From: a virus
Virus record (IMG/VR): IMGVR_UViG_3300038701_001055
Location: 1-48,215 of that record
Strand: one strand, 5' to 3'
DNA: 48,215 nt
The notes beneath the pieces were generated by a model. The model was not told where the DNA came from. It saw nothing but the letters and a program-made list of their open reading frames with translations, and did no database searches. This document shows positions 230 to 22,789 of this stretch, in pieces; within the stretch, counting starts at the first letter, position 1; each line of letters opens with the position of its first letter. The position numbers and the translations under genes are program-made.

Positions 230-2323
230 TTATAATTCAATTTCATTTACACAAGCATCCGCCCATGTCTTTCCTCTATTTGTACCTACAATCATTGGCA
301 CCTTAAGTTTAATACCATTCTCCATAATATACTTTACTTTCTTTGCTATGTCAATGCTTTTTGTACTAAAGTTTATTTCATCATGAACTGGGAAATAAAT
401 AGGTATACCCATCCTATAACACATGGCCAGACTAATGTAAAGTAAATCAGCGCCAGATCCTTGAATCTTATAATTGAACATCTTATACGACAAATCAATC
501 CATCTCTTTGCTTTTGTACTATAGAAAGTCTTTGGGCAGCCAATCTTTCTTCCTGTAACTGAAGTAACGTAACCAACTCTTTTTCCTTCATCCATACACT
601 TTTCCCCCATATCTTTGATATAAGGAAATTTATCCATATAGATATTGTATATAACTTCACCATCTTCCCATCCAACTCCTAATGCTGTTCCATATAGTTT
701 CTTTTTACCCATTCCGTAACTTATTCCTAAGTTAACACCTTTGGCGTACTTCCTAAGTTTCTTAAACTCTTTTGAACTTTCATCTAATGTGTTCATTTCT
801 GGGAACATGCCTTTCCCTACAAACACATGTACATCCATGTAAGGATTTAAGTTCCATTCATCGCAGATAGTGTCTGCGGATTCCATACCTTCTGCTGATG
901 CAAAGTGTGCCTGCAGTCTTGGCTCTTGTGCAGACCAATCATATGTATACCAATCTTCTCCAGGCTCTGGGTGGAATATATCTCTTATTAATGTTCCTAC
1001 TTCAGGGTCTTTATCAATGGATGACATTTGTTGTATGTTAGGTTTAGAGCCTGTCATTCTTCCAGAAGCATCAGCGCCTAAAGGCTTAAGTTGTGGATAT
1101 ATTCTTCCATATTCTCCACCCATCTGGTCTGTAAGTTCTAAGAATTCAAGTATCTTGTCACAGAAGTTATTCCTTGGCACTTGGAACCTTCTGTATTCAA
1201 GTATACATTTTAATCTTTCATCTTCTGTCTGTTTATATGCAGACTCTATCCATGCATGGTCTATTGAGTAGTTGTTTGTTTCTTCATTAAATTCAGGCGT
1301 ATGTCCTAAAGATACTAAGTATTTGGAAAGTTTAGTAGGAGATGCTAAGTTGACTTCCATGCCATTTATCATTAATACATCTTCACCGTCAACATCTATT
1401 ATTTTACCACCTGATATCTTGACAAACTTGTCATATGCGGCTCTTTCTTTCATGTAAAGAACATCTCTGCTGGCTTGTAAGGTCTTAATGTGTACAGGAA
1501 CACCTCTTTGTCTAGCTTGTAATAAACATTTACATACATCACTAAATAAGTCTACATGCCATTGGTCAACATCTTTTATAAAGAAGTTATATAGCTTAGC
1601 ACCACCTAACGAATCATCTAGGCAATACTTATCTACAGTTTCCTTTCCTCCTTGTTCATATATGATGTCCATATTCTTTTTACACCATAAAACAGCTGAT
1701 TTCTTTACTTTATCTTTCTGTTCTCGAGTCCTTACTGGCCCTGTTGCTGGAGGTTTCCAAGGCTCTTTAGTTCCATTTCTTTTGTTTACATGCCTAAATT
1801 CAGGTGCTTTGCTGTAATACTTCTTCTTGTACTTCACCCTAGACAGGCACTTTAAGTTCTGGAATCCTTTAATGTACTTTCTATTCTTTATGGCCCACAA
1901 CGCCATAGGCATCTCTGATTTCTTCTCATTGAAATATATGTCTAATAAATAGTTAAGACTGAATGAGCTTACTGTGTTGTCATATAGAGCAGCTAGTATG
2001 TATGTATCGACCATCAATGCATCCCATATATTTATGCCTAGCTGTAACATTATGCCCATATCATATAAGACATTGTGCGCTGATATGGTGTGACAGTTTT
2101 CTACTATCTGTTTTAAATAATCCCAATCACTTGTAACAAACCCTTCACCTGTATCTATGTTTATTACAGAACAGCACAGAGGCTTACAGCCACCCCACGG
2201 CCAGTTGCTTCCATACTTTACTATGTCTAGTTCTTCTTTAGATTCAAAATCAAAGTAAACCTTCTTCCATGTTAATGGGTCAGATTTTAATGTCTCGAAA
2301 TTGTAATCTTGAAACCTGCTCAT
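230..2323 (-). CDS. Family A DNA polymerase with 3'-5' exonuclease domain
   Basis: This 697-aa replicative polymerase is close in length to T7 gp5 (704 aa). The proofreading domain is intact: exo I DFE at 25-27, exo II around N84-D88 (HNVLYD), exo III YCLDD at 233-237. The polymerase domain has motif A YDWSAQEPR (D462), motif B with R524, K528 and N531-L532-G533, and motif C VHDE (646-649). The residue matching E. coli Pol I Phe762 is Leu532. The gene overlaps the upstream adenine methyltransferase by 4 nt and is followed by the probable ssDNA-binding gene. I am sure of the family; host factors such as thioredoxin cannot be judged. Confidence 0.97.
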   Translation of the reverse strand: MSRFQDYNFETLKSDPLTWKKVYFDFESKEELDIVKYGSNWPWGGCKPLCCSVINIDTGEGFVTSDWDYLKQIVENCHTISAHNVLYDMGIMLQLGINIWDALMVDTYILAALYDNTVSSFSLNYLLDIYFNEKKSEMPMALWAIKNRKYIKGFQNLKCLSRVKYKKKYYSKAPEFRHVNKRNGTKEPWKPPATGPVRTREQKDKVKKSAVLWCKKNMDIIYEQGGKETVDKYCLDDSLGGAKLYNFFIKDVDQWHVDLFSDVCKCLLQARQRGVPVHIKTLQASRDVLYMKERAAYDKFVKISGGKIIDVDGEDVLMINGMEVNLASPTKLSKYLVSLGHTPEFNEETNNYSIDHAWIESAYKQTEDERLKCILEYRRFQVPRNNFCDKILEFLELTDQMGGEYGRIYPQLKPLGADASGRMTGSKPNIQQMSSIDKDPEVGTLIRDIFHPEPGEDWYTYDWSAQEPRLQAHFASAEGMESADTICDEWNLNPYMDVHVFVGKGMFPEMNTLDESSKEFKKLRKYAKGVNLGISYGMGKKKLYGTALGVGWEDGEVIYNIYMDKFPYIKDMGEKCMDEGKRVGYVTSVTGRKIGCPKTFYSTKAKRWIDLSYKMFNYKIQGSGADLLYISLAMCYRMGIPIYFPVHDEINFSTKSIDIAKKVKYIMENGIKLKVPMIVGTNRGKTWADACVNEIEL

Positions 2324-2865
2324 CGTCTATCCATCACTATTATGCAGCAAGGGAAATTGTAAGTTCCGCCAGGTACTCCGTTTCTCTCAAACTTTAATCG
2401 TTTAGGTAATCTTATAATATAGCTTGACGGCTTATGTACGCGTTCACTTGTTATATTATGTAAGTGTAGAGAGTCAAATTTACTTAAATACCAAGTCAGC
2501 ATGCCATATTTAGGCTCAGATGTATGTATATCTTGGAGTATTTTTTTATACCATTTTGTGGTTGGGTCATCTCTAACCAGACATACAACTTTCATGTTCT
2601 TACTAAACTCCCACGCCCTTTCTAAGAAAGGTCCTGGGTTTGAATATGGAGGATTCAAGAACACTGCATTTTTGCTGTCTTCGGGGCACTGGCCTGGTAT
2701 TTTCAAATATTGACTCTTCCACTCTTTAGAGGCATCTTGAAAGAAGTTTCCGTTTTGTGCTTTAACGTTATCCTCTACGGCACATGCGTCTACTACGAAA
2801 TTAAATTCTTTATCTAGTAAGTCAAACAACCATTGTGGCGTCTCCCAACTATCTGAATCGCTCAT
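2320..2865 (-). CDS. DNA N6-adenine methyltransferase (phage Dam type)
   Basis: This 181-aa protein matches the phage DNA N-6-adenine-methyltransferase family (Dam, PF05869). It opens with the typical WETPQWLFDLLDKEF block (7-21), followed by DACA (27-30), and has the catalytic NPPY at 71-74 followed by SNPGPF. It probably methylates adenine in phage DNA using S-adenosylmethionine; the target site cannot be read. No cognate restriction enzyme is nearby, so self-protection against host restriction is the likely role. Four-nt overlaps on both sides place it in one transcript with the cytosine methyltransferase and polymerase. Confidence 0.88.
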   Translation of the reverse strand: MSDSDSWETPQWLFDLLDKEFNFVVDACAVEDNVKAQNGNFFQDASKEWKSQYLKIPGQCPEDSKNAVFLNPPYSNPGPFLERAWEFSKNMKVVCLVRDDPTTKWYKKILQDIHTSEPKYGMLTWYLSKFDSLHLHNITSERVHKPSSYIIRLPKRLKFERNGVPGGTYNFPCCIIVMDRR

Positions 2866-3842
2866 AAATCCTCCTCTTTGTTTAGATATTCTAATATACT
2901 GACTCCCAGCATCCTGGCCATTTCTACAGGAAACGCATTTCCTATTTGCCTATACTGGGAAGAGATGCTTCCTCTAAATATCCAAGAAGGTTCAAATGTC
3001 TGAATTGCTGCGTATTCTGGGATATTCAAAGGTCTGGTTTCTTCAGGATGGCACCTTTCTGTCTGCCTCTGCGTCGGGCTGCATAACAAGGTCAATGAAG
3101 GTTCTTCCCACTTTAGCCTTCTGGCCATTCCTGTTTTTCCTCCTCCAGAATTTAAAGAATTTCCCATGTACTCTGACTTAATTGGTTCAGGCAAGTCTCT
3201 CCAGCATCCGCCAGGTGGTACTAAATTAAATATCTCTTTCTTTTTTAAAGGGTAATCATACCCAGCACCTGACATGGTGGGATAAATAACATCCCTCAGG
3301 GTCGCTATTTTATCAACCTTTTCTGGAAATTTAAATGTCAGTTTTTCACAAAAAGTACTAGCAATTATTATAAGTCTCTCCCGCTTTTGAGGTATTCCAT
3401 AGTCTACTGTATTTAATACTTTGACAAATTGATTGCCGTAACCTATGTTTTTTAACTCTGCTAGTATTGTTTTCAGCGCCTTTCCGTTGTCTTGAGTCTT
3501 TAATCCTTTAACATTTTCTATGAGAACAAGCCTTGGGCTTACCTTTTTAATTACATCCAGTAGGTCATAAAAAACGCCCCCTCTTTCATCATTAAGTCCT
3601 TTTCTATTTCCAGCATAGCTGTAAGATTGGCAAGGTATTCCAGCACTAACTATGTCCGCATAAACTTCTGTGAAGTCAACATCTTGTATTTTTTTATTAA
3701 TGACTCTCCAGTCAGTATTAGACACTAAGGTGTCACACGCATCTTTATTAGACTCTACAGCCATTTCTGTTTTTATTCCTGACATTTCCAAACCTCTAGC
3801 CATGCCTCCGGCTCCAGCAAACAGTTCTATGCAAGTTATCAT
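2862..3842 (-). CDS. DNA (cytosine-5) methyltransferase
   Basis: This is a C5-cytosine methyltransferase of 326 aa from the chosen start. It shows motif I FAGAGG (residues 8-13), motif IV PCQS with catalytic Cys71, motif VI ENVKG (about 109), motif VIII QKRER (about 152) and motif X QIGNAFPV (about 299). An upstream in-frame ATG at 3875 exists, but a strong Shine-Dalgarno (GAGGGGGG) sits just before the ATG at 3842 and inside the longer version, so I prefer 3842. No restriction endonuclease is adjacent, so it likely protects phage DNA together with the neighbouring Dam-type enzyme. Confidence 0.93.
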   Translation of the reverse strand: MITCIELFAGAGGMARGLEMSGIKTEMAVESNKDACDTLVSNTDWRVINKKIQDVDFTEVYADIVSAGIPCQSYSYAGNRKGLNDERGGVFYDLLDVIKKVSPRLVLIENVKGLKTQDNGKALKTILAELKNIGYGNQFVKVLNTVDYGIPQKRERLIIIASTFCEKLTFKFPEKVDKIATLRDVIYPTMSGAGYDYPLKKKEIFNLVPPGGCWRDLPEPIKSEYMGNSLNSGGGKTGMARRLKWEEPSLTLLCSPTQRQTERCHPEETRPLNIPEYAAIQTFEPSWIFRGSISSQYRQIGNAFPVEMARMLGVSILEYLNKEEDL

Positions 3843-3867
3843 AACACCCCCCTCATCGTCTGGAAAC

Positions 3868-4062
3868 CTACTCACTTAATGTCCTTCCAAGGTAATCAAA
3901 ATATATAACCCTAGCTTCTTCAAGAAAATGTTTAGGAGTGTTATAAAGTTCTTCATCAACCAGCTCTCTATATATCCCTTCATCGTAAAGTACATATGAC
4001 AGTATGTGGTATTTTCCATCAACTTTAATTATTCTATCGAAATAGTCTCTAGGGTTTGTCAT
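3868..4062 (-). CDS. Small unknown protein, 64 aa
   Basis: I do not recognise this acidic/aromatic protein (MTNPRDYFDR...). It overlaps the primase-helicase by 4 nt upstream and ends 26 nt before the preferred methyltransferase start, so translational coupling is likely. No membrane segment or metal-binding motif is visible. Support is its position in a gap-free operon and ordinary amino-acid composition. Confidence 0.65.
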   Translation of the reverse strand: MTNPRDYFDRIIKVDGKYHILSYVLYDEGIYRELVDEELYNTPKHFLEEARVIYFDYLGRTLSE

Positions 4063-6686
4063 GAAGCTTCTCCATCATCTGAAGGGAAGCAGGCTTTCTC
4101 TACGTCCCATGTCTGTTCATTTAATCTGTACACATCAGTAAGTTTATCAAACTCCTTGCCATATCTACTCTTAATAACTCTTATCCATCTTATGCTCGGG
4201 TCGAAAGGCTTAGAGCCGCTTGGTGTGTAGTAAGCTCTTGTCTGTCCTTCAATAGATATAACATTAAATGCCATATTTGTTATGTTCCCTGACCCTCTTA
4301 TGTCGCCCTCTGCGCACTCTTTGCCTTGTTTCCATGTCTTTCCTTGTCCTGGGTTTTTTAAGTGGGCTACAAGCACTACACTAACTCCTGTACGCATTAC
4401 AAAGTGCTCTAAGTGTCCCATAAACAGGTCAATATCCTTTCTTTCTCCGTCCTTAGAGGAATGTTCGGAGGAAAACGCAATAGTCAAGTTATCAATGAAT
4501 ATAAAATCTGACTTATTTATCACTGCACAGTAGTTTAGCAAGTCCATTAAGCTATTTACATTACATATTCCTTCATGTTTGAAGAAATTCATGTAAGGGA
4601 ACAGCCTTTCCCTACTTGCCTGTACCTGTTCATCTGTTAATATGTTTGGATGTTCTAATAATACCTTAAAAGGCACATGATTATCCATAGCTATAAACTG
4701 TAGTGCGTTGTAGTTGTAAGGTGACTCAATTTTAATATCATCTACCTTCAATTTATGCTTAACTACTAGCTCATATTGAAGTCGTGTAATTGCATCCGTT
4801 TTTCCAAGTCCGCTATTTCCTGTTATAAAGATGCTGTCTTCACATCTAAGAACTAACATACCTGTAGGCACAGTAAAGCAGTATTTAAGTCCATCAATTG
4901 ATTTGATTCTATTTACTTCAGAACCTCTAATTCCTATAAGGTCTCTTTTTGTTCTATGCACAACATATTCTACCCCTCTAGTTCTGTCTTTATCCTCTGT
5001 TCTGTTATATGAAGATATGGAAGCTTTGTAACCTGAACATGTGAAACAGTATTGTATAAAATCAGCACACTCTTTACTATTAGTATAAAATGTATTCCTA
5101 CAATTACCATCCCAGTGCAAGCACTCTTCTGATATCAAATCTAATTGTTTTTGATTACATTTATAGAACTCTCTTATGAAGTTCTTTTCTCTGTACGGTG
5201 CATTGAATTTAAATATAGTAAATCCTGTGCATTCTTGTACTCTTTCCTTGAACTCTACTCCTGCATCAAGTAGCAAGGCTCTTAGTCTATCTATTTTTCT
5301 TTGTTTCTTTAATCTTACATTGCACCAATTAGTTCTTTTTGATTTTGGTGAAAAATACCCATCTGCCATTACAGCTACTTGTAATCTTAAGTCTGTGTCA
5401 CTTAGCTCTAGTCCATTTCCTTCATTGTTAGTGAAGGTTGTTTTAAATCTACCTCTAAATTCTGATGTAAGTTCTGAAGCTTTAATTTCTATAAACTCTC
5501 CATCACTTCTTTTCTCTGGCAAGTATAAACATCTATGTTCATCTGATAGTTTTTGTGAAACTCCATATTTAGTTTTTAAATAAACAAACTCTTCACAAGG
5601 TTCTACTATATATCTTTCAGGTTTTACAAACTCAATTGAGCCGTCTTGTTTGTACTGAGCGACGAGCTCTCCGTGAGTATATGTAGACATTCTTCTCCAC
5701 CCATTGGGGGATAAGTATTCTGTATCCTTGTCAACACAGCCGCCGGCCACTACAGTAAGTTCTCCTTTAGCAAATCCATTCAAAGCTCTGTCTAATCCAG
5801 GGAACGTATTAAGCCTGTACCCCACTCTAAGCGGCTTTCTTAGTTCTTCTAATGAAATGTCTACCCCTTTAATTAAATGGGCAGGCGGGGCGGGCTGTGC
5901 CTTCATTACAGAGAATTTAAGCTCGTTGCTTCCATTCTCTTTTGCCAATAGCTCACATGCATCCTTGGCCTTAACATCTATTATGGACAGCTTATAAGGC
6001 GGTACTAGCTTTTTCACCATGTCCAGCGCTGCTTGTCCCTCTTCATCCTTGTCAAAGAATACTATGATATTATCATGTCTCATAATGTCATCATAATCAA
6101 GCTTAAATGACTTTTCTACACTACCGGCGCCGTTAGGCAGGGAAGATACGTTGTAACGAAAGTCAGTAGCCTGCGCCACTGCCATCATGTCTTCAACTCC
6201 TTCTGTTATTATCAGCTTTCTTTTCCCACTCTCCCAGAAATGTTTACCTATCAAGCCATAGCCTTCATCTGGGAAGTTGACAGCCTTAAATGATTTACTT
6301 GGGCCTCTTATTTTTTGCCAAAGCAGTTTCCCATCCTTGTCAAGTATGTCCATCGTGGCGACTTCAATAGGGTTTTCTATTGAGCCGAAGTAGTGCTCTA
6401 CTCCGTTAATCTTTTTTACTAAAGTCCCAGAATACTTACTGTAATGGTATAGGTATTTTTCACATGTAGCTTTTGATATCCCTCTGTTTGTAAGTTCTCT
6501 AAAGCTTCCTCTTTCTATGTAGGGCACTTTTCTTTTAGGCGGTTTCTTAAATTCACTCACACCGTCTCCTTTAGAGTGGTTATTGCATCCAGGGGTAAAG
6601 CAGTGCCACCCCCCATCGGTGTCTATTACTACATTATCTGAAGAGTGACATTCCTCACATGATTTAGTTTGTGTTGTAAATGCCAT
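4059..6686 (-). CDS. T7 gp4-like primase-helicase precursor interrupted by an intein
   Basis: The 875-aa precursor unwinds DNA and primes lagging-strand synthesis. An N-terminal zinc ribbon has Cys10, Cys13, Cys29 and Cys34. The Toprim primase core has ITEGVEDMM (E162) and FFDKDEEG (D212, D214). The RecA-type helicase has its Walker A completed only after intein removal (AGG + SGLGKT at 625-630), Walker B FIFIDNL (about 731), VAHLKNP (773-779) and RGSG (797-800). Removing the 308-aa intein (317-624) leaves 567 aa, almost exactly T7 gp4 (566 aa). It lies directly downstream of GroEL in the replication operon. Confidence 0.95.
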   Translation of the reverse strand: MAFTTQTKSCEECHSSDNVVIDTDGGWHCFTPGCNNHSKGDGVSEFKKPPKRKVPYIERGSFRELTNRGISKATCEKYLYHYSKYSGTLVKKINGVEHYFGSIENPIEVATMDILDKDGKLLWQKIRGPSKSFKAVNFPDEGYGLIGKHFWESGKRKLIITEGVEDMMAVAQATDFRYNVSSLPNGAGSVEKSFKLDYDDIMRHDNIIVFFDKDEEGQAALDMVKKLVPPYKLSIIDVKAKDACELLAKENGSNELKFSVMKAQPAPPAHLIKGVDISLEELRKPLRVGYRLNTFPGLDRALNGFAKGELTVVAGGCVDKDTEYLSPNGWRRMSTYTHGELVAQYKQDGSIEFVKPERYIVEPCEEFVYLKTKYGVSQKLSDEHRCLYLPEKRSDGEFIEIKASELTSEFRGRFKTTFTNNEGNGLELSDTDLRLQVAVMADGYFSPKSKRTNWCNVRLKKQRKIDRLRALLLDAGVEFKERVQECTGFTIFKFNAPYREKNFIREFYKCNQKQLDLISEECLHWDGNCRNTFYTNSKECADFIQYCFTCSGYKASISSYNRTEDKDRTRGVEYVVHRTKRDLIGIRGSEVNRIKSIDGLKYCFTVPTGMLVLRCEDSIFITGNSGLGKTDAITRLQYELVVKHKLKVDDIKIESPYNYNALQFIAMDNHVPFKVLLEHPNILTDEQVQASRERLFPYMNFFKHEGICNVNSLMDLLNYCAVINKSDFIFIDNLTIAFSSEHSSKDGERKDIDLFMGHLEHFVMRTGVSVVLVAHLKNPGQGKTWKQGKECAEGDIRGSGNITNMAFNVISIEGQTRAYYTPSGSKPFDPSIRWIRVIKSRYGKEFDKLTDVYRLNEQTWDVEKACFPSDDGEAS
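4815..5738 (-). other. Intein (308 aa) inserted in the helicase P-loop, with degenerate LAGLIDADG-type region
   Basis: The intein runs from Cys317 (CVDKDTEYLS) to Asn624 (IFITGN) of the precursor; the first extein residue after it is Ser625. Block A (Cys plus a turn at about 324-330), block B (KLSDEHRCL, His384) and blocks F/G (YCFTVPTGMLVLR ... FITGN) are visible. The penultimate residue is Gly rather than the usual His. The middle has LRLQVAVMADGYF (433-445), resembling one LAGLIDADG motif; a convincing second is not seen, so the homing endonuclease may be degenerate. Splicing rejoins AGG and SGLGKT into a perfect GxxxxGKT loop. Confidence 0.93.
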
Positions 6687-8330
6687 TTATTTTCCATCAT
6701 CATGAGTCATTACAGTGTCAGTTCTAATTACAGTTGTCGCTATTGATACGGCTTGCCTTACAGCTGAGGCTACAACCTCGCTTGGCTCTATTATTCCATT
6801 GTCCACAAGGTTTACAAGAAAAGGATGTGAGTTCTGGAAATCAAAACCAACTAAATCTTTGGTTTTTGAATGGTCTGGTATTTTATTTATCAATCTTTTA
6901 TTTCCATAGTTAGATAACAATTTTTCTAACGGCTTGCTAAGAGCCTCAACAACTATTTTATATCCCAGCTTGGTGTCTCTTGAACAGTATTTAGGAAGTG
7001 TGCTTTTCATGTTCTTTATAAAGCCTTTGGATAAAGAGTTAGTAAACACCCCGCCCCCTGGCAAATATCCAGACTTGAGCGACGCCCTTACTGCATATAT
7101 TGCATCTTCATATCTGTCTTTTCTTTCTTGATTTTCTACTTCAGAATTACTTCCGACTTTAAGTACAACAATCCTTCCTTTAAGTTTTGATATCCTTTCT
7201 TCACTTACCGCCCGTTGCCAGTCGGCTCCGGCCATTTTATGTATCTCTCTAACTTTGTTCAATTGTTCTTCTAATCCTTTTGAAGAGCCGCCTATGATAG
7301 AACACTTATTGCTTTCTGTAATTACTTTCTCACACTCTCCAAAGTCTTTGTATTTAAACTTGTGCACGTCATTTAAATCTATTCCTTGGTTCACCTTAGC
7401 CCCTGTAAACGCCGATATGTCTTGTAAGAAGTCATTCATGGTCGCAGTATATCCTGGAGCTTCGACACAACAAATTTGATTTGTTCCTTGTTGATGATTC
7501 CCTATAAAAGTTGCCAAAGCTCCTCCTGACACACCTTTAGCTATAACTAACAAAGGTCTTGGGTCTGATATTCTTTTCGGCTTGCCGTTCTCAGTCTCAG
7601 TAAGGGAAATTCCCATCGATGCCGTTATAATGCTTGCCGCCATGGTGGGAGAGGAAAGCTCCTCATTTGTTATAAAAATCAAAGGGTTAAGTAGTATGCT
7701 TTTCATCTTATCAGAGTTGTTTGCAAAACTGTTATCAAAATACCCCCTGCCCCACTGCCAGCCATTTACTATGTCTAAATCATCTTTTGGTAGATGGTTG
7801 TCTTCAATAATTACTGACATCTCAGAATCGGCTGTCTCAAATGCTTGTGCTATTGTGCTGGCCATGTGTTCATCGCCATTTACTGACATTTTTGCAATGG
7901 ATTTAATTTGACTTGGCTTTATTTTTAAAGCCGAGCCTTCGACTGAACTTACAATGTGCTTTTCAGCTATTTGCATGCCCTTGACAATGTCTGGTATGTT
8001 ATGTTTTTTATCAGCTAAGTGTAATGAGTTTTTCATAATCTCATATGCTAATATGGTTGCTGTAGTTGTCCCATCCCCTACTTCAATAGCCGTGTTTTGT
8101 GATACAGCTTTAAGTAAGTTTACACCTTGCTCCATTTGTCTATCTGCTATGTTGATATGCTTGGCGACTGTAGCCCCGTCCTTTGTAATGTACGGCCCAG
8201 TGCCTGTCTCTATTAAAGCATTACGCCCACAAGGGCCGAGCGTTGAACTCACTGCAAGATATACTAATTCAAATCCTTTAAATAGTTTTTTTCTTGCATC
8301 ACTTCCAAATATAATTCTCTTGTTATTCAT
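6687..8330 (-). CDS. groEL: Phage-encoded GroEL-type chaperonin
   Basis: This 547-aa protein has normal GroEL length (E. coli 548). ATP-site signatures are present: STLGPCGRN (29-37), ITKDGATVA (48-56) and GDGTTTAT (85-92). Near the C-terminus it keeps DRYEDAIYAVRAS, including the Asp matching the ATPase residue D398, then the PGGG turn. It lacks the Gly-Gly-Met tail, ending in THDDGK. It should form a folding chamber for phage proteins. It sits in the leftward replication operon, while a GroES-like partner is in the late head operon. The coding frame looks intact and functional. Confidence 0.96.
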   Translation of the reverse strand: MNNKRIIFGSDARKKLFKGFELVYLAVSSTLGPCGRNALIETGTGPYITKDGATVAKHINIADRQMEQGVNLLKAVSQNTAIEVGDGTTTATILAYEIMKNSLHLADKKHNIPDIVKGMQIAEKHIVSSVEGSALKIKPSQIKSIAKMSVNGDEHMASTIAQAFETADSEMSVIIEDNHLPKDDLDIVNGWQWGRGYFDNSFANNSDKMKSILLNPLIFITNEELSSPTMAASIITASMGISLTETENGKPKRISDPRPLLVIAKGVSGGALATFIGNHQQGTNQICCVEAPGYTATMNDFLQDISAFTGAKVNQGIDLNDVHKFKYKDFGECEKVITESNKCSIIGGSSKGLEEQLNKVREIHKMAGADWQRAVSEERISKLKGRIVVLKVGSNSEVENQERKDRYEDAIYAVRASLKSGYLPGGGVFTNSLSKGFIKNMKSTLPKYCSRDTKLGYKIVVEALSKPLEKLLSNYGNKRLINKIPDHSKTKDLVGFDFQNSHPFLVNLVDNGIIEPSEVVASAVRQAVSIATTVIRTDTVMTHDDGK

Positions 8331-8534
8331 TTATGCCTCTTCTATTGTAACTTCTATATCATGGCCAAAAACACCTATAAGGCCTATATCCATGTATGCT
8401 GTATTTTTAACGTATGTTTTTACAAACGATTCATCTATTTCATGTTTGTGCGCCACGGCATATGCAACCTCATTAAGTATAAAAGAATATACATGTTCTT
8501 TATTACTTACTTTATGTAATACTTTAATGTTCAT
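8331..8534 (-). CDS. Small unknown protein, 67 aa
   Basis: An unrecognised protein (MNIKVLHKVSNKEH...) directly abuts the GroEL start with no gap, which suggests coupled translation. The centre is rich in His, Val and Tyr; no transmembrane segment or known motif is visible. Reality is supported by tight spacing on both sides (2 nt from the Gp157-like gene). Confidence 0.65.
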   Translation of the reverse strand: MNIKVLHKVSNKEHVYSFILNEVAYAVAHKHEIDESFVKTYVKNTAYMDIGLIGVFGHDIEVTIEEA

Positions 8535-9481: not shown

Positions 9482-9792
9482 TATAGTTCCAATTGATTGA
9501 GTTTTTCCAACACATTTGTCTTAAACTTTTTTCTGAACTTTTCACTGTTCTCTATAGACTCTAACAATATGTAAAGGATTACTTGTCCAACTATGTCATG
9601 CCCTATGTCCGTGAGCTGTGTGAAAGAAGAGTCAGGTTCAAACATTATAGTTCTTGAAGTTTCACAATCATCGTCCCACCACTCCACTGAGAATCGATAG
9701 TTTGAAGACAGGTCAGGTTTACACATTTTTAATTTCTTTATTTGTAAAAGCTTTCTTTTGTCTTTCATGCTTATAACATTCTTATCATTCAT
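9481..9792 (-). CDS. Unknown protein, 103 aa
   Basis: An unrecognised protein with a basic N-terminus (KDKRKLLQIKKLKM), a central acidic/aromatic stretch (VEWWDDDCETSRTIMFEP, about 38-55) and a helical C-terminus. It overlaps its upstream neighbour by 4 nt. Nothing indicates secretion or membrane insertion. Confidence 0.62.
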   Translation of the reverse strand: MNDKNVISMKDKRKLLQIKKLKMCKPDLSSNYRFSVEWWDDDCETSRTIMFEPDSSFTQLTDIGHDIVGQVILYILLESIENSEKFRKKFKTNVLEKLNQLEL

Positions 9793-10322
9793 CTTTTTAA
9801 ATCTCTCTTACTTATAGTGTACATGTATCTGCCCGTTTTTATGTAACCAAGACTTTCCCACTTAGCAAACTTCTCCCTGCCCAGTGCGGGGCACCCCCAA
9901 CTCCTGCCGGGTGTCGTATTCTTTGACATATAAGTATTACTTGCGTACCTTGCTGTGTGTGCTACAATTGCACGCTTTCTGGCGTTGTCATTGACGCCCT
10001 TCTCTAGTCCATCTAATCTGTAAGAGATTTTGAACTTCATTGACTTGTACTTTTCAGCATACCTCATAAGTCCGGCTGACGACTTACGACTGTTTGGCTT
10101 GTTGCTTAGTATTAAATTTCTACCAAGCCTTGAACCTGAACCTGAGCCATGAGTCAAAAATCCGCTGTCAAGTATTCTTCTATTCTTTACATCAATCATA
10201 AATGCCCTATGTTGGTCCGCATCTCTTGTAAAGTCATTCATTTGAATTATATCATCATCAAGTTTTAATTTAAATCTTTTTACAACAGCTATGGCGCAGT
10301 CTAATATCTCTTTATTGTTCAT
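9789..10322 (-). CDS. L,D-transpeptidase-like (YkuD_2/murein transpeptidase) protein
   Basis: This 177-aa protein resembles the murein L,D-transpeptidase catalytic family (PF13645). It has AFMIDVKNRRILDSGFLTHG (40-59) with GSGS, LSNKPNSRKSSAG (72-84), then GLEKGVNDNARKRAIVAHTA with His122, and GRSWGCPAL with the expected catalytic Cys144. Such enzymes crosslink or remodel peptidoglycan through a Cys thioester. No signal peptide is visible, so periplasmic access would need lysis, a holin or another route. The gene overlaps the exported M48-like protease gene by 4 nt, suggesting a joint envelope role. Confidence 0.8.
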   Translation of the reverse strand: MNNKEILDCAIAVVKRFKLKLDDDIIQMNDFTRDADQHRAFMIDVKNRRILDSGFLTHGSGSGSRLGRNLILSNKPNSRKSSAGLMRYAEKYKSMKFKISYRLDGLEKGVNDNARKRAIVAHTARYASNTYMSKNTTPGRSWGCPALGREKFAKWESLGYIKTGRYMYTISKRDLKR

Positions 10323-10867
10323 TTACTTACCTCTTCTTTCGGGAAATCATTAATCATTGACATAAAGTATTTATATCTTGTTATCAAGCATGGATGTAGC
10401 GGATCGTTTACAGGTACAGTATGTTCATGAAAGAATAGAAATAGTGATGCACCATCTTTTAAGTTATATATCTTAGATTTAGACAATAAGTTTTTAGCTA
10501 TTCTATCCGCATTTTTCTCATTTTCAAGTGAGGAACTTTCATGTCTTAAATATATATGTGCAAGTTCGTGATATAAGACAGTTGCTATTTGTGAGTCATT
10601 TTCAAGACCTCTGACTAAATTATAATTCACACATATTCTATTTTTTTTAATGTCAGCATACGCCCAAGATGCATTTCCTTTTAATAAGCATTTAGATTCC
10701 GTCAAGCGCGGCCTTGACTTGATTTTATACTGTTTGTTAAATTCATAAAAAACATTTATATATATGTCGTTCAATTTCTTGCTGGGGACTTGGGCGTAAG
10801 AATCTATACATAAACATAAACAATACGCTGCCACAAATACTACTATTGATTTTACTAATGTGTCCAT
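10319..10867 (-). CDS. Exported M48-like zinc metalloprotease
   Basis: From the chosen start (MDTLVKSIV, 182 aa) there is a classic signal peptide: a short charged n-region, hydrophobic core at about 7-20, and a probable cut after SYA (residue 25). The zinc site is YHELAHIYL with His100, Glu101 and His104, followed by ExxAD (E117-D121) as in family M48. An upstream in-frame ATG at 10888 would bury the signal peptide, and the Shine-Dalgarno AAGGTGAG lies just before 10867, so I prefer this start. It probably cleaves envelope proteins; the target is unknown. Confidence 0.82.
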   Translation of the reverse strand: MDTLVKSIVVFVAAYCLCLCIDSYAQVPSKKLNDIYINVFYEFNKQYKIKSRPRLTESKCLLKGNASWAYADIKKNRICVNYNLVRGLENDSQIATVLYHELAHIYLRHESSSLENEKNADRIAKNLLSKSKIYNLKDGASLFLFFHEHTVPVNDPLHPCLITRYKYFMSMINDFPKEEVSK

Positions 10868-11064
10868 TTCGTACTCACCTTGCTGCATCTTTCTTTGATA
10901 ACTTCATCTATTGCTTGTTTCGCCATTTTATATTTAAAGTAATAGTGACTAAATAACGGATCTTTTAACTTAATCAATAATTCATTTCTGTACTCTAATA
11001 GTTCAGATGATTTTCTATCTCTAAACTCATTCTTATAATTGTCAACTGTATGTAGTATCATCAT
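10855..11064 (-). CDS. Small unknown protein, 69 aa
   Basis: A basic, helical-looking protein (MMILHTVDNYKNEFRDRK...) with many Lys and Tyr residues in the middle (FSHYYFKYKMAK). It overlaps the protease start by 13 nt and the upstream gene by 4 nt. No recognised domain. Confidence 0.6.
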   Translation of the reverse strand: MMILHTVDNYKNEFRDRKSSELLEYRNELLIKLKDPLFSHYYFKYKMAKQAIDEVIKERCSKVSTKWTH

Positions 11065-15035: not shown

Positions 15036-15129
15036 TCTTGAGTTGGTTGCCTGCCTGAAAGCCAAACCAACATCAAGACAGAGTCAAAGACTTGCTCTGC
15101 TCGGGCATCCATGCCCTCTTTTAATCTAT

Positions 15130-15158
15130 TATACATATAAGTATTTATCTTGTCAAGT
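15130..15158 (-). promoter_or_regulatory. Perfect sigma70-type consensus promoter, leftward
   Basis: On the minus strand TTGACA (15158-15153), a 17-bp spacer and TATAAT (15135-15130) match the bacterial consensus exactly. A GACGAATGGT motif (15161-15170) ends two bases upstream of the -35 box. Transcription should start near 15123 and run towards the early genes; the first leftward ORF with a good ribosome site begins at 14469, leaving a leader of about 650 nt. Confidence 0.9.
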
Positions 15159-16768: not shown

Positions 16769-16965
16769 GTACAGGTAAAAGAGAGAAATGCCCTGCTTGT
16801 GGGTCTAAAATGGGAGAATATACACATCTAAATGATAAATCTCCCTATATTTTCTTAGGAAAATGTACTAAGAAAAGATGTGAAATGACTTATAGTTATG
16901 TAGACATGCAGATGAAGAGAAAGTTATTAAAGAAAGAGGAATCGCCAAATGACAGCAATGCCTAA
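16765..16965 (+). CDS. Small zinc-ribbon-like protein, 66 aa
   Basis: It uses a GTG start overlapping the upstream TGA (GTGA). Two Cys knuckles are seen: CPACGSKM (9-16) and GKCTKKRCEM (about 32-41), a C-x2-C / C-x4-C pattern typical of a zinc ribbon such as Ogr/Delta-like late-gene activators. The rest is basic. A transcription-related role is an inference from the motif only. Confidence 0.62.
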   Translation: MSTGKREKCPACGSKMGEYTHLNDKSPYIFLGKCTKKRCEMTYSYVDMQMKRKLLKKEESPNDSNA

Positions 16966-17704
16966 AGCAACCTTATTTATAGTATTCCTTATAGGGATGT
17001 TATTTGGAAAAGAACTATTTGCCAATACGCTTATAGATTTAGACAATATAAAAAATAATTGGCACTCAACCTACAAAATAGATACCTCAACTAAAGAATT
17101 AAAAGCCAACTTTATTGAATTGCTTATGGCCGTGCCAAGTATAAGGGGTGAAAATTGCAAAGAATCTATTATGTCTGTCCCACTTCTAAATACAGTCCCA
17201 ATAGAGCAAAGATTAAATCCAAAAACTATTAAAATGTGTGAAAAGTGGCACATAAATTTGAATTACTTGATAGGTCCATTATTTCTCTACAATGACGTTA
17301 TATTAATTCTTCAAAATACGACAGAAGAGCAAGAAATAATATTTCATATAGCTAATTTTGGCGGCTATATACATACAGGAAATGTACTTTTAAATGAAAT
17401 TTCACAATCAAAAGCATATACAGTTGCTTCTGTTGAGGGGCAAAGTTATTCAATGGCTGCAAATATAGCTTGCTCTACAAATAAGTTAGATTTAAAGAAA
17501 TTTAGCTATTTGATGTTTCACACATATAGAGGCGGGATTTCAGGAAACGGACAAGAGATGAGAGCAAGATCGGCAGCGGCTGACAAGAACTTTGGCATAC
17601 AACTAGATCAATGTGCAGCTAAAGGCGTTCTTACAATAGAACAAAGAGACTCTATATTGAATGGAACAGATATATACGTATTCCCAGAGGATATAAGAAA
17701 ATAA
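16949..17704 (+). CDS. Exported ClpP-like serine peptidase-fold protein
   Basis: The 251-aa protein begins with a signal peptide (hydrophobic core about 9-20, likely cut after LFA, residue 25). Its second half matches the ClpP/crotonase fold: NFGGYIHTGNVLLNEI (136-151), VEGQSYSMAANIA with Ser168 at the ClpP nucleophile position, and YLMFHTYRGG with His191. It ends at DIYVFPEDIRK, just short of where ClpP places its third catalytic residue (Asp). The frame stays open in -1 after the stop. Its place before the terminase and its signal peptide argue against an ordinary prohead protease. Confidence 0.72.
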   Translation: MTAMPKATLFIVFLIGMLFGKELFANTLIDLDNIKNNWHSTYKIDTSTKELKANFIELLMAVPSIRGENCKESIMSVPLLNTVPIEQRLNPKTIKMCEKWHINLNYLIGPLFLYNDVILILQNTTEEQEIIFHIANFGGYIHTGNVLLNEISQSKAYTVASVEGQSYSMAANIACSTNKLDLKKFSYLMFHTYRGGISGNGQEMRARSAAADKNFGIQLDQCAAKGVLTIEQRDSILNGTDIYVFPEDIRK

Positions 17705-17781
17705 ATAATTTAAATGATATAAAGTATTGGAAAGTTATTAGAGGGGATTACATAGTTCTCTCTAATTTTTTTGGGTCTGCG

Positions 17782-18021
17782 GTGCTTATAGACAAGAAGT
17801 CCTATTTTAATAATAGCATCAAATTGATTAAAAAGAAAGAGGATATTGAATATTTAACTGTCATTTTTTATAAAGATAAAAGGGAATTTCCAACATTAAA
17901 ACAACTTGACAGGATGGGAATAACCAGAGGCATATTAAGGGGCGTTTATGGAAGAGAACGTGCCTATGAAAAGTTAATTAATTCAATTACAAAACTTATA
18001 GACGATTCAGAGCTTCTATGA
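17782..18021 (+). CDS. Unknown protein, at least 79 aa, start uncertain
   Basis: The annotated start is a GTG with only a weak ribosome site. The frame is open upstream to 17623 and the added residues after 17701 look coding (INNLNDIKYWKVIRGDYIVL), but no ATG, GTG or TTG starts them. Possible explanations are a -1 frameshift from the ClpP-like gene at its AAAA-TAA end, a non-standard start, or a sequence error. The body is basic (LDRMGITRGILRGVYGRERA). The stop overlaps the terminase small-subunit start by 4 nt. No domain recognised. Confidence 0.6.
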   Translation: MLIDKKSYFNNSIKLIKKKEDIEYLTVIFYKDKREFPTLKQLDRMGITRGILRGVYGRERAYEKLINSITKLIDDSELL

Positions 18022-18536
18022 AAGATAAAGAGACAAAAAAAGAGATAAAAAAACAAGACTGTATTAAGTCATGGGCCTCTAAGTATAAAAAAGAGATGGC
18101 ACAAGATTTTCTAGATAAATGCAGCATGGGAATGAGCCTGCCAGAGATAGCCGCCAGTTGGGGGGTTTTAGAAAAAACCATGGGAGAATGGAGAGACAAT
18201 CCAAAACATAAAGAATTTGCCAGGGCATTCGAGCATGGAAGGACGGCATGTCATGCATATCATACAGCAAAATTAAAGCAATTAATTGCAGATGGTGCCG
18301 CAGGCCCGGCCATAAACGGGCAAATAACAATATTGAAGTCTTTATTCCCTGAAACTTGGAACATTGCCACCAGGCAAGAAGTTAAGAAAGAAGAAAAGGC
18401 ACAAGATCCTGAAAAGATAAATAAAGAACTTATTCACCACTTAAATACTCCACAAATTAAAAATGCGATGAAAAGGATGTTAAAAGATGACAGAGTAAGT
18501 CCACTTATAAGAGAAGTGAAGTCAGACAATGTCTAA
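18018..18536 (+). CDS. Terminase small subunit
   Basis: The 172-aa protein has a Lys-rich start and a helix-turn-helix-like stretch (MGMSLPEIAASWGVLEKTMGEW, about 36-57), then a helical middle and a charged tail. This arrangement and its position 8 nt overlapping the large terminase fit a DNA-recognition subunit that selects packaging sites. The catalytic subunit follows immediately. Family assignment rests on motif type and synteny. Confidence 0.82.
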   Translation: MKDKETKKEIKKQDCIKSWASKYKKEMAQDFLDKCSMGMSLPEIAASWGVLEKTMGEWRDNPKHKEFARAFEHGRTACHAYHTAKLKQLIADGAAGPAINGQITILKSLFPETWNIATRQEVKKEEKAQDPEKINKELIHHLNTPQIKNAMKRMLKDDRVSPLIREVKSDNV

Positions 18537-20049
18537 AGTAGATGATTATGTATTAGATTCCCTTGAAAGAATGCCTTATGAAAAAAAGGCCGCCCTTTTA
18601 AAAGTAATAAAACAACATTATGAAAGATCCAGATATAACCATTTAGAAGAGTATTATCCAGATACAGGTCATTTGTCAATTGATGCATATCCCAAACATT
18701 TTCAATTCTTTGAAGCGGGTAAAAAATATAAATTTAGGGCGTCGATCGGAGGTAACCGTTCAGGGAAAAGTATTCACTCACATGTTGAGCTAGTTTATCA
18801 TTTAACTGGACTATATCCGCACTGGTGGCCTGGTAGGAAATTCTATAAACCAATAACTTCCGTCGTAGGATCTCCAAGTCCTGATAATCTAAGGCGTATC
18901 AATCAAAGGATACTTTTAGGCTCTTTAAGAGATCCAGGAACTGGGCTTATTCCCAAAGACCTTTTAGTAAAAGGTGGAATAATAAAAAGACCCGGAGGCG
19001 GTGAAGTGTTTCAAGAGATATATGTAAAACATGTATCCGGCGCACAGTCCCTTGTAATTGGAAAAACCTATAAGCAGGATGTTGATTCCTACGCAGGAGA
19101 TGAACTAGATTTTGCATTACTTGACGAAGAGGTTCCAGAGTCTATATATTCAGAAGTTATGACCCGGCTAATGACTACAAACGGTTTAAGTATTTTATGC
19201 TTTACTCCCTTAGACGGTCTTACCAATGTTGTAATGAAATACTTACCAGGTGGTACATTTCCAGATACTCCAAACAGGTGCGGCAATGTAAAAGGAACTA
19301 AACATTTATGGGTAACTAATCTAACTTGGGACGATGCGCCTCACTTGGACGAAAAGGAGAAGGAGTCACTATATGAGGCATACTTACCTCACGAAAGAGA
19401 TGCCCGTACAAAAGGTATTCCATCTATCGGATCTGGTAAAGTTTGGCCTGTGGATGAAGAGTTATTTGTATGCAATTCATTTAAAGTGCCCGACTACTGG
19501 TTAAGATTTTTTTCAATTGACGTAGGTGCAGGGAGTACAGCCGTTACTTGGTGGGCTGTAGATCCCAACACCGGGGTTGAGTACGTGTATGATGAATATA
19601 AAGCAGAAAATAGACAAATATTTGAACATGTAAATTACATAAATTCAAGAGGTTCTTGGATTAAAGGGGTAGGAGACCCGTCAGCTCAAAAATTAAGAGA
19701 CTTTAACAACAATCAAACTGTTTTAAAACAGTATAGAGATTTGGGGCTTCCATTTGAAATGGCCGACAACGCCATTGAGCCGGGAATAAGGGCAGTTTAT
19801 ATCGGGCTATCTACTGGTAAAGTTAAAATAATGTCACATTGCACTAAATTATTAGATGAGATGAGAATTTATAAATACGGCAAAGACGGAAAGCCTGCCA
19901 AAAACCAAGAAGACCATTTATGTGATACATTTAGGTACGGTGTTATGTCTGGAAGAAGGGTTGCAACAGCAACTCCTGAATTTGAAGATAGATTTAAAAG
20001 AAAAGTACAAAGAAACAACTCTAATAGAGATAGGACAACAGGTTATTAA
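18529..20049 (+). CDS. Terminase large subunit
   Basis: The 506-aa packaging motor has an N-terminal ATPase with Walker A GGNRSGKS (about 75-82), Walker B FALLDEEVPE (about 195-204), and a C-terminal RNase H-like nuclease opening with FSIDVGAGSTAVTWWAVDP, where the first Asp is a metal ligand. Length is typical. Paired with a P22-like portal and permuted ends, headful packaging is likely, but the packaging mode cannot be proven here. Confidence 0.95.
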   Translation: MSKVDDYVLDSLERMPYEKKAALLKVIKQHYERSRYNHLEEYYPDTGHLSIDAYPKHFQFFEAGKKYKFRASIGGNRSGKSIHSHVELVYHLTGLYPHWWPGRKFYKPITSVVGSPSPDNLRRINQRILLGSLRDPGTGLIPKDLLVKGGIIKRPGGGEVFQEIYVKHVSGAQSLVIGKTYKQDVDSYAGDELDFALLDEEVPESIYSEVMTRLMTTNGLSILCFTPLDGLTNVVMKYLPGGTFPDTPNRCGNVKGTKHLWVTNLTWDDAPHLDEKEKESLYEAYLPHERDARTKGIPSIGSGKVWPVDEELFVCNSFKVPDYWLRFFSIDVGAGSTAVTWWAVDPNTGVEYVYDEYKAENRQIFEHVNYINSRGSWIKGVGDPSAQKLRDFNNNQTVLKQYRDLGLPFEMADNAIEPGIRAVYIGLSTGKVKIMSHCTKLLDEMRIYKYGKDGKPAKNQEDHLCDTFRYGVMSGRRVATATPEFEDRFKRKVQRNNSNRDRTTGY

Positions 20050-20054
20050 TTTAA

Positions 20055-22187
20055 ATGAATAAACTAATAGAAAATCCAATAGATTTTAAAACAATACTAA
20101 AAACAGAGAATATGGTAGATGTCTTGGATGAACAAGACCTAAAAAGATTATCTGATTCTGTATTTGAAGGGTTGAATGAGGATGAACAAAGCTGGGGCAG
20201 CGATTTAGACAGATTTGATGAGATAATGGACTTGGCCTTAATGACAGAGGAAAAGAAGAATTTCCCATGGGAAGGGGCTTCAAATGTCAAATGGCCTTTA
20301 ACTTCAATGTCCATGGTTCAGTTTACTTCCACGTCTTCTCCTGAGTTTGTCAAAAATGGTAAAGTATTTGATTATAGAAAGACCATTAATGATGAAACTG
20401 GGGCGGTTGAAAGGAGAGGCAACCGAAACATAAAGTACTATAATTATAAGATACTTAAACAGTACCCCAATAAATATATAGATGAAACTGAGTCAATGCT
20501 TAATCAAGCGTCTTTGCTGGGAACATCCGTTAAGAAGATATATGTAGATCCTGTACTGGGAGAAGTTATATCAGAGTCTATACCTTATGACTGTATAACT
20601 TATAATAAGGGCATAAAAGACTTTTCAACAGCACCAAGAATAACAGAATGGTTTAACCTCTCAATGGTTGAATATTTAAATCTAGTAAATATGGATGAAT
20701 ATGTTCCAACAAGATCAGATACAATGTCTGACAAAGAGCTTACAGATTTAGAAATAGCTAAAAGGAACCTTGAAAGCAAATCTATATCATCTTTTGATGA
20801 TAAGTCTAATTTCTTATTTATATCTCAATTTACTTATGCAGATCTTGACGGGGATGGATATCCAGAACCTTATTTTATTATATGCAATGTAGATTCAAGA
20901 GAGATATTAAGAATATCAAAAGGATTTAAACCAAAGGACGTAAAAAGAAAAGTTAGAGACGGCAAGTCTGTAATCAAATACATTAAACCTCAGAAGCGGT
21001 ACATAGCTTATAGATTTATCCTATCTCCAGACTTATCTTTCCCAGGAGTTGGGTTTGGCTCTTTACTTCACAGCCCAAATAAAGTCATTAATACTTTGGC
21101 CAACCAGCTTATAAACTCAGGCACCTTAGCTACTACCCAATCGGGATTTTATGATAAATCATTAAATTTGCCAGGAGGCGAGTTCAATACTGATATTGGA
21201 AAATACCAAGAAGTTGATAGCTTTAACAACAAGCCAATCTCTGACTCTTTCCACCAATTGACATTTCCAGAGCCTTCACAAGTTCTTTTCCAAATGTTGG
21301 GGATGGTGTTAGAAGCTGCTAAAGATTTAACTGCAACTACAGACGCCTTGCTAGGAAAGGCAGATACTCAAAATGCATCTCCCGATGTTATTCAGCAGAT
21401 GGTTGCGCAGGGCAAGAAAGTGTTAGTAGCCATCTTAAGAAGAATACTTGCCACAGCAGAAGAAGAGGCCTCATTAATTGTAGAATTAATGGCTGAAAAT
21501 GTAGATCCGGCAGAATACGCAAGAATAGTTGGAGTTCCCCCCAAAATACTGACAACCCAACAAGATCCTCAAACTGGAGAGCCTGTACAAGTAGAAATAG
21601 ACAACCCAGAATATAACGAAATGTTTGACATGAGCGAAGGAGGCAATGGAGAATTTATTGATCTTAAGCGCGCTAATTTTGAAATCATTCCAGTAATTGA
21701 CTCAAACAGTACGACTAAATTAGAAGAGAATTTTAAATATGACTCTGCCTTAATGACCGTTCAACAAACAGGTACGGCAGGATTGGTCGACATGGCGCTT
21801 ATTTTGAAGCGCAAATTTAAAGCCCTGGGCATAGAGAATGTAGAGGAGCTTGTCCCTCCTCCAAAGCCCGCCCCGCCTGATCCAAAACTATTAGATTTAC
21901 AGTCTAAGATAGACGAAAGAGGGAGGATACTTTCTCTAAAAGAAAGGGAACAGCAATTAAAAGAAGCTGAGCTTCAATTAAAGGCAGAAAGGCAGACTTA
22001 TGAAAATGAGAAGACAAAAGCTGAAATAGCTGAAATCTTGGAAGAGATTAGAAAGGCTGCTGATTTAAAAGACGTGGATGCTTTGCTTAGAAGGGCAGAA
22101 ATTATTAAGATAAACGCAGATGTTGCAAAGACTAAGAAAGAAACAGGCCAAATAGGAAAGGATAATGAAAAAGACACAGATAAGTAA
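20055..22187 (+). CDS. Portal protein (P22 gp1-like)
   Basis: The 710-aa protein follows the large terminase and matches P22-type portals in length (P22 gp1 is 725 aa). Recognisable features are WEGASNVKWPL near residue 75, the central TTDALLGKADTQNASPDVIQ segment (about 430), and a long C-terminal Glu/Lys/Ala coiled coil (about 615-705) like the P22 barrel. It forms the dodecameric ring through which DNA is packaged and ejected. The 3' end overlaps the next gene by 23 nt. Confidence 0.92.
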   Translation: MNKLIENPIDFKTILKTENMVDVLDEQDLKRLSDSVFEGLNEDEQSWGSDLDRFDEIMDLALMTEEKKNFPWEGASNVKWPLTSMSMVQFTSTSSPEFVKNGKVFDYRKTINDETGAVERRGNRNIKYYNYKILKQYPNKYIDETESMLNQASLLGTSVKKIYVDPVLGEVISESIPYDCITYNKGIKDFSTAPRITEWFNLSMVEYLNLVNMDEYVPTRSDTMSDKELTDLEIAKRNLESKSISSFDDKSNFLFISQFTYADLDGDGYPEPYFIICNVDSREILRISKGFKPKDVKRKVRDGKSVIKYIKPQKRYIAYRFILSPDLSFPGVGFGSLLHSPNKVINTLANQLINSGTLATTQSGFYDKSLNLPGGEFNTDIGKYQEVDSFNNKPISDSFHQLTFPEPSQVLFQMLGMVLEAAKDLTATTDALLGKADTQNASPDVIQQMVAQGKKVLVAILRRILATAEEEASLIVELMAENVDPAEYARIVGVPPKILTTQQDPQTGEPVQVEIDNPEYNEMFDMSEGGNGEFIDLKRANFEIIPVIDSNSTTKLEENFKYDSALMTVQQTGTAGLVDMALILKRKFKALGIENVEELVPPPKPAPPDPKLLDLQSKIDERGRILSLKEREQQLKEAELQLKAERQTYENEKTKAEIAEILEEIRKAADLKDVDALLRRAEIIKINADVAKTKKETGQIGKDNEKDTDK

Positions 22188-22545
22188 AGAACTGTATACT
22201 GATTTTAAAACTAACATAGTAGTAAAGTGCATAATGGAGGAGTTAAGAAACAAGTTAGAGAATAGAAAGTTAACGTTCTTTAAGGAATTGTCCCCCGCCA
22301 TGTCTGGAGAAGAGATAGGGATGAAGGCACATGAAATCATAGGATTTGAGCTTGCGGTGAGCGTCTTAAATGATTTTGACCACATGAAAAACACCTTATT
22401 GTTTGATAGATTTGAAGAAGAGAGAGAGTTAGAAAATGACAAAGATAGCAGAGAAGATAAAAGTACCGTCGTGGAAAGTCTTAGTTCAGGTTCTAAAAGA
22501 ACCAGAAATAGACGAATTCGGAGTCTACAGATCAGGAGATCATAG
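22165..22545 (+). CDS. Unknown protein, 126 aa, overlapping the GroES-like gene
   Basis: A helical, charged protein (MKKTQISKELYTDFKTNIVV...) of the kind often found between portal and scaffold in podoviruses. Its last ~36 residues (Ser/Arg-rich, low complexity) are read from the same DNA as the start of the GroES-like gene in another frame, a 110-nt overlap that is unusually long for this genome. No domain recognised. Confidence 0.65.
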   Translation: MKKTQISKELYTDFKTNIVVKCIMEELRNKLENRKLTFFKELSPAMSGEEIGMKAHEIIGFELAVSVLNDFDHMKNTLLFDRFEEERELENDKDSREDKSTVVESLSSGSKRTRNRRIRSLQIRRS

Positions 22546-22789
22546 ATCGGTAAGAGAGGCTGGGTGCAGGGTTGGCTATATAGTATCCACCGGGCCGTTG
22601 GCAATGACAACTAACGCCGATAGGGATATGGGCAAACTAGAAAAAGGGGATAAGGTAGTATTTAGAAGATACGGAGGAGATGCTTTTAGAATAAAAGACG
22701 ATCCAGATGATTTCCTGTACAGACTGCTCACTGACAGTGAAATAGAAATGATTCTTCAAGAAGGTGTGGAGGTACAGTATGAAGACTGA
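22436..22789 (+). CDS. GroES-like co-chaperonin
   Basis: The 117-aa protein shows the GroES (Cpn10) pattern: VPSWKVLVQVLKEP (10-23), a flexible segment in the mobile-loop position (DEFGVYRSGDHRSVREAG, 26-43), VGYIVSTGPLA (46-56), KGDKVVFRRYGG (70-81) and FLYRLLTDSEIEMILQEG at the end. It is about 20 aa longer than E. coli GroES, like phage co-chaperonins such as T4 gp31. It would cap a GroEL ring, probably to fold the capsid protein, as it lies between portal and scaffold. The Ile-Val-Leu tripeptide of the loop is not conserved. Confidence 0.83.
   Translation: MTKIAEKIKVPSWKVLVQVLKEPEIDEFGVYRSGDHRSVREAGCRVGYIVSTGPLAMTTNADRDMGKLEKGDKVVFRRYGGDAFRIKDDPDDFLYRLLTDSEIEMILQEGVEVQYED

Follow-up and report, generated by a model that had tools for sequence, protein, structure and literature searches.

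Why should a phage of 48 kb encode both a GroEL-type barrel and a GroES-like lid, and why do the two genes lie in blocks of opposite orientation? The initial annotation of this virus had taken the split between them as a pointer to a phage-controlled folding switch. We arrive at a different explanation: the two chaperonin genes very probably have separate origins and came together in a complete podovirus-type genome. Their most likely working mechanism, for which we see roughly an even chance, would be that of a cognate pair formed by the phage GroEL and the lid of the phage's own head module. Taken as a whole, i.e., with separate origins and cognate-pair mechanism combined, this explanation appears moderately probable.

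Genome layout and the two chaperonin genes

The window that we analyzed, a stretch of 48,215 nucleotides, is the entire IMG/VR virus record IMGVR_UViG_3300038701_001055. An exact 125-bp terminal repeat (positions 3-127 and 48089-48213, with two unmatched bases at each end) yields a circle of 48,086 bp, and the join of the record's ends is spanned by one ORF of 243 aa. Because of these two features the map looks closed, which makes gene absences within the record meaningful, and the same features speak against an assembly fragment or a chimera. The phage is likely of the podovirus type, since none of its scanned proteins matched a tail tube or sheath and since podovirus is the annotation given to several related genomes.

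The groEL gene (6687-8330, minus strand) is part of a leftward block together with genes for a family A DNA polymerase (230-2323, minus strand), a primase-helicase, Dam and C5 methyltransferases, an exonuclease, and an endonuclease I-like protein. It abuts genes at both flanks, a 67-aa ORF directly upstream (8331-8534, minus strand) and a T7-type primase-helicase of 875 aa directly downstream (4059-6686, minus strand; profile matches), so that GroEL is indeed embedded among replication genes as had been proposed. The rightward block (all plus strand) comprises the small (TerS, 18018-18536) and large (TerL, 18529-20049) terminase subunits, the portal protein (20055-22187), the Cpn10 gene (22436-22789), three ORFs, the major capsid protein (24793-25719) as the presumed main client, a holin, the head closure protein Hc3, and an endolysin. 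One ORF between Cpn10 and capsid (22764-23549) occupies the same place in relatives and is a possible scaffold by position. A perfect consensus sigma70 promoter (15128-15156, minus strand, running from 15156 to 15128), the sole 12/12 match within the window, precedes the leftward block in the divergent region, and a terminator-like hairpin (17737-17766, plus strand) lies ahead of the packaging and head block; both elements were recognized by consensus only. With their genes in oppositely oriented blocks, GroEL and Cpn10 belong to different transcription units, as the initial annotation had stated.

The groEL reading frame encodes 547 aa with zero internal stops, and its product matches Pfam Cpn60_TCP1 (182 bits, E 1.8e-53), PHROG 5725 "chaperonin groEL" (E 1.3e-107), and the GroEL chains in the PDB (E about 1e-76). 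The protein belongs to group I and not with the thermosome or CCT, as it scores 349.5 bits with the NCBIfam GroEL model vs. 83 or less with the CCT/thermosome models. However, it remains below the curated NCBIfam cut-offs for GroEL (349.5 bits vs. 352 for PRK12849 and 340.8 vs. 582 for the equivalog TIGR02348) and would, by this cut-off standard, class as a diverged group I member but no equivalog. The ATP-binding and hydrolysis residues D52, D87, and D398 are retained along with the GDGTTT and GGG motifs, while position D495, which is D in all other aligned GroELs, is E, and the GGM tail is missing. An AlphaFold model (pLDDT 91) comprises a full subunit with equatorial, intermediate, and apical parts, without a built-in helical lid, and its best fold matches are GroEL/Hsp60 structures. 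We also considered that this might be a natural single-ring chaperonin from the residue at R452, which is E in this protein, but set this reading aside, as the alignment column varies (E in 13%) and gaps lie nearby.

The co-chaperonin of 117 aa exceeds the Pfam Cpn10 cut-off (23.6 vs. 21.1 bits) and matches PHROG 3188, co-chaperonin GroES (E 2.8e-4). A head-lineage profile of its relatives, built with this protein excluded, recognizes it at 51 bits (E 2.3e-15), compared to only 22 bits for a profile of GroEL-linked Cpn10s. Its AlphaFold model, made with an alignment of relatives, reaches pLDDT 79 with loop residues 29-32 as the sole stretch under 50, and the 30 best matches in a PDB fold search with this model were all Cpn10 structures. 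The Cpn10 fold on which the initial annotation had staked its interpretation is thus what the model shows, and both genes are real. A profile search found no second Cpn10 in the window. The 67-aa ORF upstream of groEL was considered as a hidden second Cpn10 and dismissed, as it showed no match to Cpn10 profiles.

Several other genes of both blocks deserve mention. The primase-helicase contains a probable intein of 308 aa (4815-5738, minus strand; residues 317-624) that is inserted in the helicase Walker A motif, with the junctions ...VVAGG|CVDKDTEY... and ...IFITGN|SGLGKTDA... and G as the penultimate residue where H is usual. It matches PHROGs named for other proteins (PhoH-like, ribonucleotide reductase), as expected of an intein shared between host genes. 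The neighboring Dam-type N6-adenine and C5-cytosine DNA methyltransferase genes (2320-3875, minus strand) lie between those of the polymerase and the primase. Elsewhere in the leftward block, an L,D-transpeptidase (YkuD_2) adjoins an M48-like metallopeptidase (9789-10888, minus strand), and the two could possibly modify the cell wall early in infection. A ClpP-like protease (16949-17704, plus strand) that matches both ATP-dependent and head maturation protease families is encoded before the terminase genes, with the terminator-like hairpin in between.

Origins of the co-chaperonin and of GroEL

Comparison with capsid relatives, which share the capsid protein at 21-29% identity, shows a common gene order of portal, at least one small ORF, co-chaperonin, three ORFs, and capsid. 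We saw this order in CRP-901/902, ct2G2228, ct2os315, QDWS535, 023Pt_psg01, DSL-LC04, HTVC023P, HTVC027P, and Pag-Yong1, while the Cpn10 of vir526 lies elsewhere, outside the stretch displayed. Altogether, 12 of 13 annotated relatives have a Cpn10, the one without it being EBPR podovirus 1, which had been drawn into the sample by its terminase, and so do 19 of the 20 IMG/VR capsid relatives tested. In line with this, GroES is among the 13 core genes of HTVC023P-type phages (PMC9599517). A GroEL was absent from all 13 annotated and all 30 IMG/VR relatives, though many of the latter are fragments, which makes each absence weak singly. In Caulobacter phage GB2A, a protein annotated as "hypothetical" (L010 3311-3742) is a head-module Cpn10 at the same place that had gone unannotated.

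By this comparison, the Cpn10 encoded at 22436-22789 is the co-chaperonin native to a head module that is widespread and has the order TerL, portal, small ORF, Cpn10, three ORFs, capsid. Its place between portal and capsid, the family profile, and a mobile loop that is ca. 4 residues longer, as in head-module Cpn10s, all assign it to the HTVC023P-like head lineage as judged from sequence. The best Cpn10 tree puts it on the head side with support of 96, but placement with the GroEL-linked Cpn10s stays compatible (AU p 0.68 and 0.84) and the tree alone is not decisive. Because the same Cpn10 layout is found in relatives without any GroEL, the place of the lid in the head module is ancestral, and its late position owes nothing to the GroEL of this phage. 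The split between the two genes, which the initial annotation had taken to suggest a folding switch, does not by itself point to one, as a Cpn10 between portal and capsid is inherited with the head module. More generally, almost the whole of this head lineage has Cpn10 whereas GroEL is very rare in it, so the default reading of a Cpn10 gene next to a capsid gene should be dependence on host GroEL.

GroEL itself is intact but highly diverged and, by the same comparison, a group I member located in the replication block that appears in no examined relative. With Cpn10 near-standard in the relatives and GroEL in none of the 43 examined, GroEL is to all appearances an addition in this phage and Cpn10 the resident. 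Since this GroEL is an orphan with at most 34% identity to other GroELs (ca. 30% to ordinary group I GroEL), the two genes seem to have been inherited separately. We rejected capture of a bacterial groESL operon, as there is no linkage between the genes and the Cpn10 belongs to the head-module type. In a tree of 115 GroELs (that of this phage, 9 from phage isolates, 80 from IMG/VR, and 25 bacterial ones), it forms no supported grouping and has an end branch of 4.07, which is so long that the tree is uninformative about a donor. Single-protein searches of IMG/VR found no close relatives of its GroEL, GroES, DNA polymerase, or capsid, and a terminase search found one relative at 40% on a 6-kb contig that also has a Cpn10.

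Chaperonins of other phages

Phages that carry both GroEL and GroES are already mentioned as published in PMC7185714, which cites Marine 2017 for them. A marine survey reported GroEL in 36 genomes of the phi38:1-like group (PMC5332604), and cpn10 is listed among the core and structural genes of Pervagoviridae (PMC8776804). The presence of both genes in a 48-kb podovirus had been called unusual, which holds for a genome under 50 kb, but less strongly than stated, given the published examples and podoviruses of 60-72 kb that carry both. In a sample of 60 GenBank hits spread over the ranking, no isolate genome with a full-length GroEL match was smaller than 59.8 kb. This phage differs from those known by its closed genome of under 50 kb, by encoding only a head-type Cpn10, and by the interface changes described below; it is an unusual combination of known parts, not a new kind of system.

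The Flavobacterium Elemovirus (60 kb) and Cellulophaga phi40:1 (72 kb, Pervagoviridae) are podoviruses that, like this phage, combine GroEL with a Cpn10 in the structural module (recognized by annotation in Elemovirus and by profile in phi40:1), and the GroEL of phi40:1 lies near DNA polymerase and exonuclease genes, akin to the placement here. However, both have an extra Cpn10 beside groEL that this phage lacks, and their GroELs share only about 27% identity with the one described here. The structural-module protein of phi40:1 (49842-50426; L283 7843-8427) is annotated as "hypothetical" but has a Cpn10-like stretch, making it a second co-chaperonin. GroEL and Cpn10 are also encoded far apart in Vibrio phages 207E48.1 and 1.244.A. 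In other phages such as immuto, Bacteroides SJC03, and many IMG/VR contigs, both genes are present as well, but there groES and groEL adjoin each other, the mobile loop is short and host-like, and the isolates have genomes of about 160 kb.

HTVC023P-type pelagiphages and their relatives (CRP-901/902, DSL-LC04, Alcaligenes QDWS535, ct2G2228) share the Cpn10 between portal and capsid, the gene order, and the longer loop with this phage. Unlike it, the HTVC023P-type phages are without GroEL, and their loop tip keeps a hydrophobic third residue (GGI-x-L type) compared to FGVYR here. T4 gp31 and RB49 CocO are phage lids linked to capsid folding. They work with host GroEL, whereas a phage GroEL is encoded here, and the structure of T4 gp31 ranks 34th among the fold matches of our Cpn10, at 13% identity in the fold alignment. 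EL gp146, OBP gp246, and AR9 gp228 are, like the GroEL of this phage, phage-encoded GroEL-like ATPases (PMC7185714, PMC9598537). Yet these chaperonins belong to giant phages, are described as lid-independent, and are more diverged from GroEL than ours. A chaperonin of this type would be expected to work without a co-chaperonin in a genome with no Cpn10 described; a Cpn10 gene is present here, which the GroEL of this phage may or may not need.

The GroEL-lid interface and possible working mechanisms

Ten well-conserved apical positions of E. coli GroEL are, as we take from established structural knowledge, in contact with GroES or substrate. Seven of them are changed in the phage GroEL, the joint highest count among 116 GroELs and one that only 3 of the other 115 aligned proteins match. 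A 15-aa apical insert that is unique in the set directly follows the segment that aligns with helix H; in the model, the insert is of lower confidence and contains no helix. On the side of the lid, the loop tip reads EFGVYR vs. mostly KGGI-x-L in the family, with F replacing the first glycine in this protein only. The third tip residue is R, while it is hydrophobic in 64/66 head and 49/52 GroEL-linked Cpn10s, and the mobile loop is present in the model with low confidence and a VYR tip whose third position is not hydrophobic.

Oddity on both sides is the pattern that a co-diverged cognate pair would give, though it is suggestive only because the phage GroELs L164, L169, L175, and L183 have apical sites changed to the same or almost the same degree, yet go with Cpn10s whose tips are normal. 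For a cognate pair, GroEL would be made early from the leftward block, with the timing read from gene order and promoter consensus, and assemble into an ATP-driven folding ring. Later, the lid encoded in the phage's head module would join it in folding the capsid protein, perhaps along with replication proteins, and the phage would thereby no longer need the host GroEL on which its relatives have to rely. The altered GroEL contacts and the altered tip of the mobile loop would then reflect co-divergence of the two partners. It is possible, though we would put it forward only tentatively, that a head-module lid originally for host GroEL was re-targeted to the separately derived phage GroEL, resulting in a private co-diverged chamber without host cross-reaction. 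This would include non-standard docking via the arginine of the loop tip and an apical pocket rebuilt with the 15-aa insert. If the cognate pair is true, it would be a compact example from nature of a lid that changed from a host to a viral barrel. It would allow a test of the contacts that determine GroEL-GroES specificity, and would bear on why over 3% of so small a phage genome goes into a barrel of its own.

The interface changes would also fit a lid-free GroEL beside a host-directed GroES. The main rival explanation, which we consider a real but lesser possibility, is that of two independent systems: Cpn10 would still cap host GroEL, and the phage GroEL would work without a lid like the chaperonins of EL, OBP, and AR9. 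Relatives possess Cpn10 without GroEL, so theirs must cap host GroEL, and 7 of the 10 conserved apical contacts are lost in the phage GroEL. Moreover, the EL chaperonin fails to bind E. coli GroES (PMC7185714), and those of AR9 and OBP are described as lid-independent (PMC9598537). However, the tip of the Cpn10 loop is unusual for a host-directed lid, and the phage GroEL, at about 30% identity, stands closer to ordinary group I GroEL than that of EL does (22%; PMC7185714). In addition, 24 of 33 GroEL-bearing IMG/VR records tested also contain a Cpn10.

A folding switch, in which the phage GroEL uses host GroES early until the head-module Cpn10 takes over late, seems unlikely. The two genes are in opposite blocks that probably differ in timing, and an early GroEL with a late lid, as the initial annotation had suggested, can fairly be read from gene order and the single perfect sigma70 promoter that precedes the leftward block. 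This layout is consistent with an early barrel and a late lid, yet it is no evidence of a switch, as the place of Cpn10 in the head module is inherited and explained without one, so that the late position of the lid is not due to this GroEL. The altered apical docking residues further argue against binding of ordinary GroES. Finally, it is very unlikely that GroEL is a relic, whether decaying or unable to fold proteins, or that it moonlights with no activity as a chaperonin, because its extreme divergence (end branch of 4.07) and scores under the NCBIfam cut-offs are set against an open frame of normal length, retention of every catalytic residue, a confident fold, and tight packing within the replication block.
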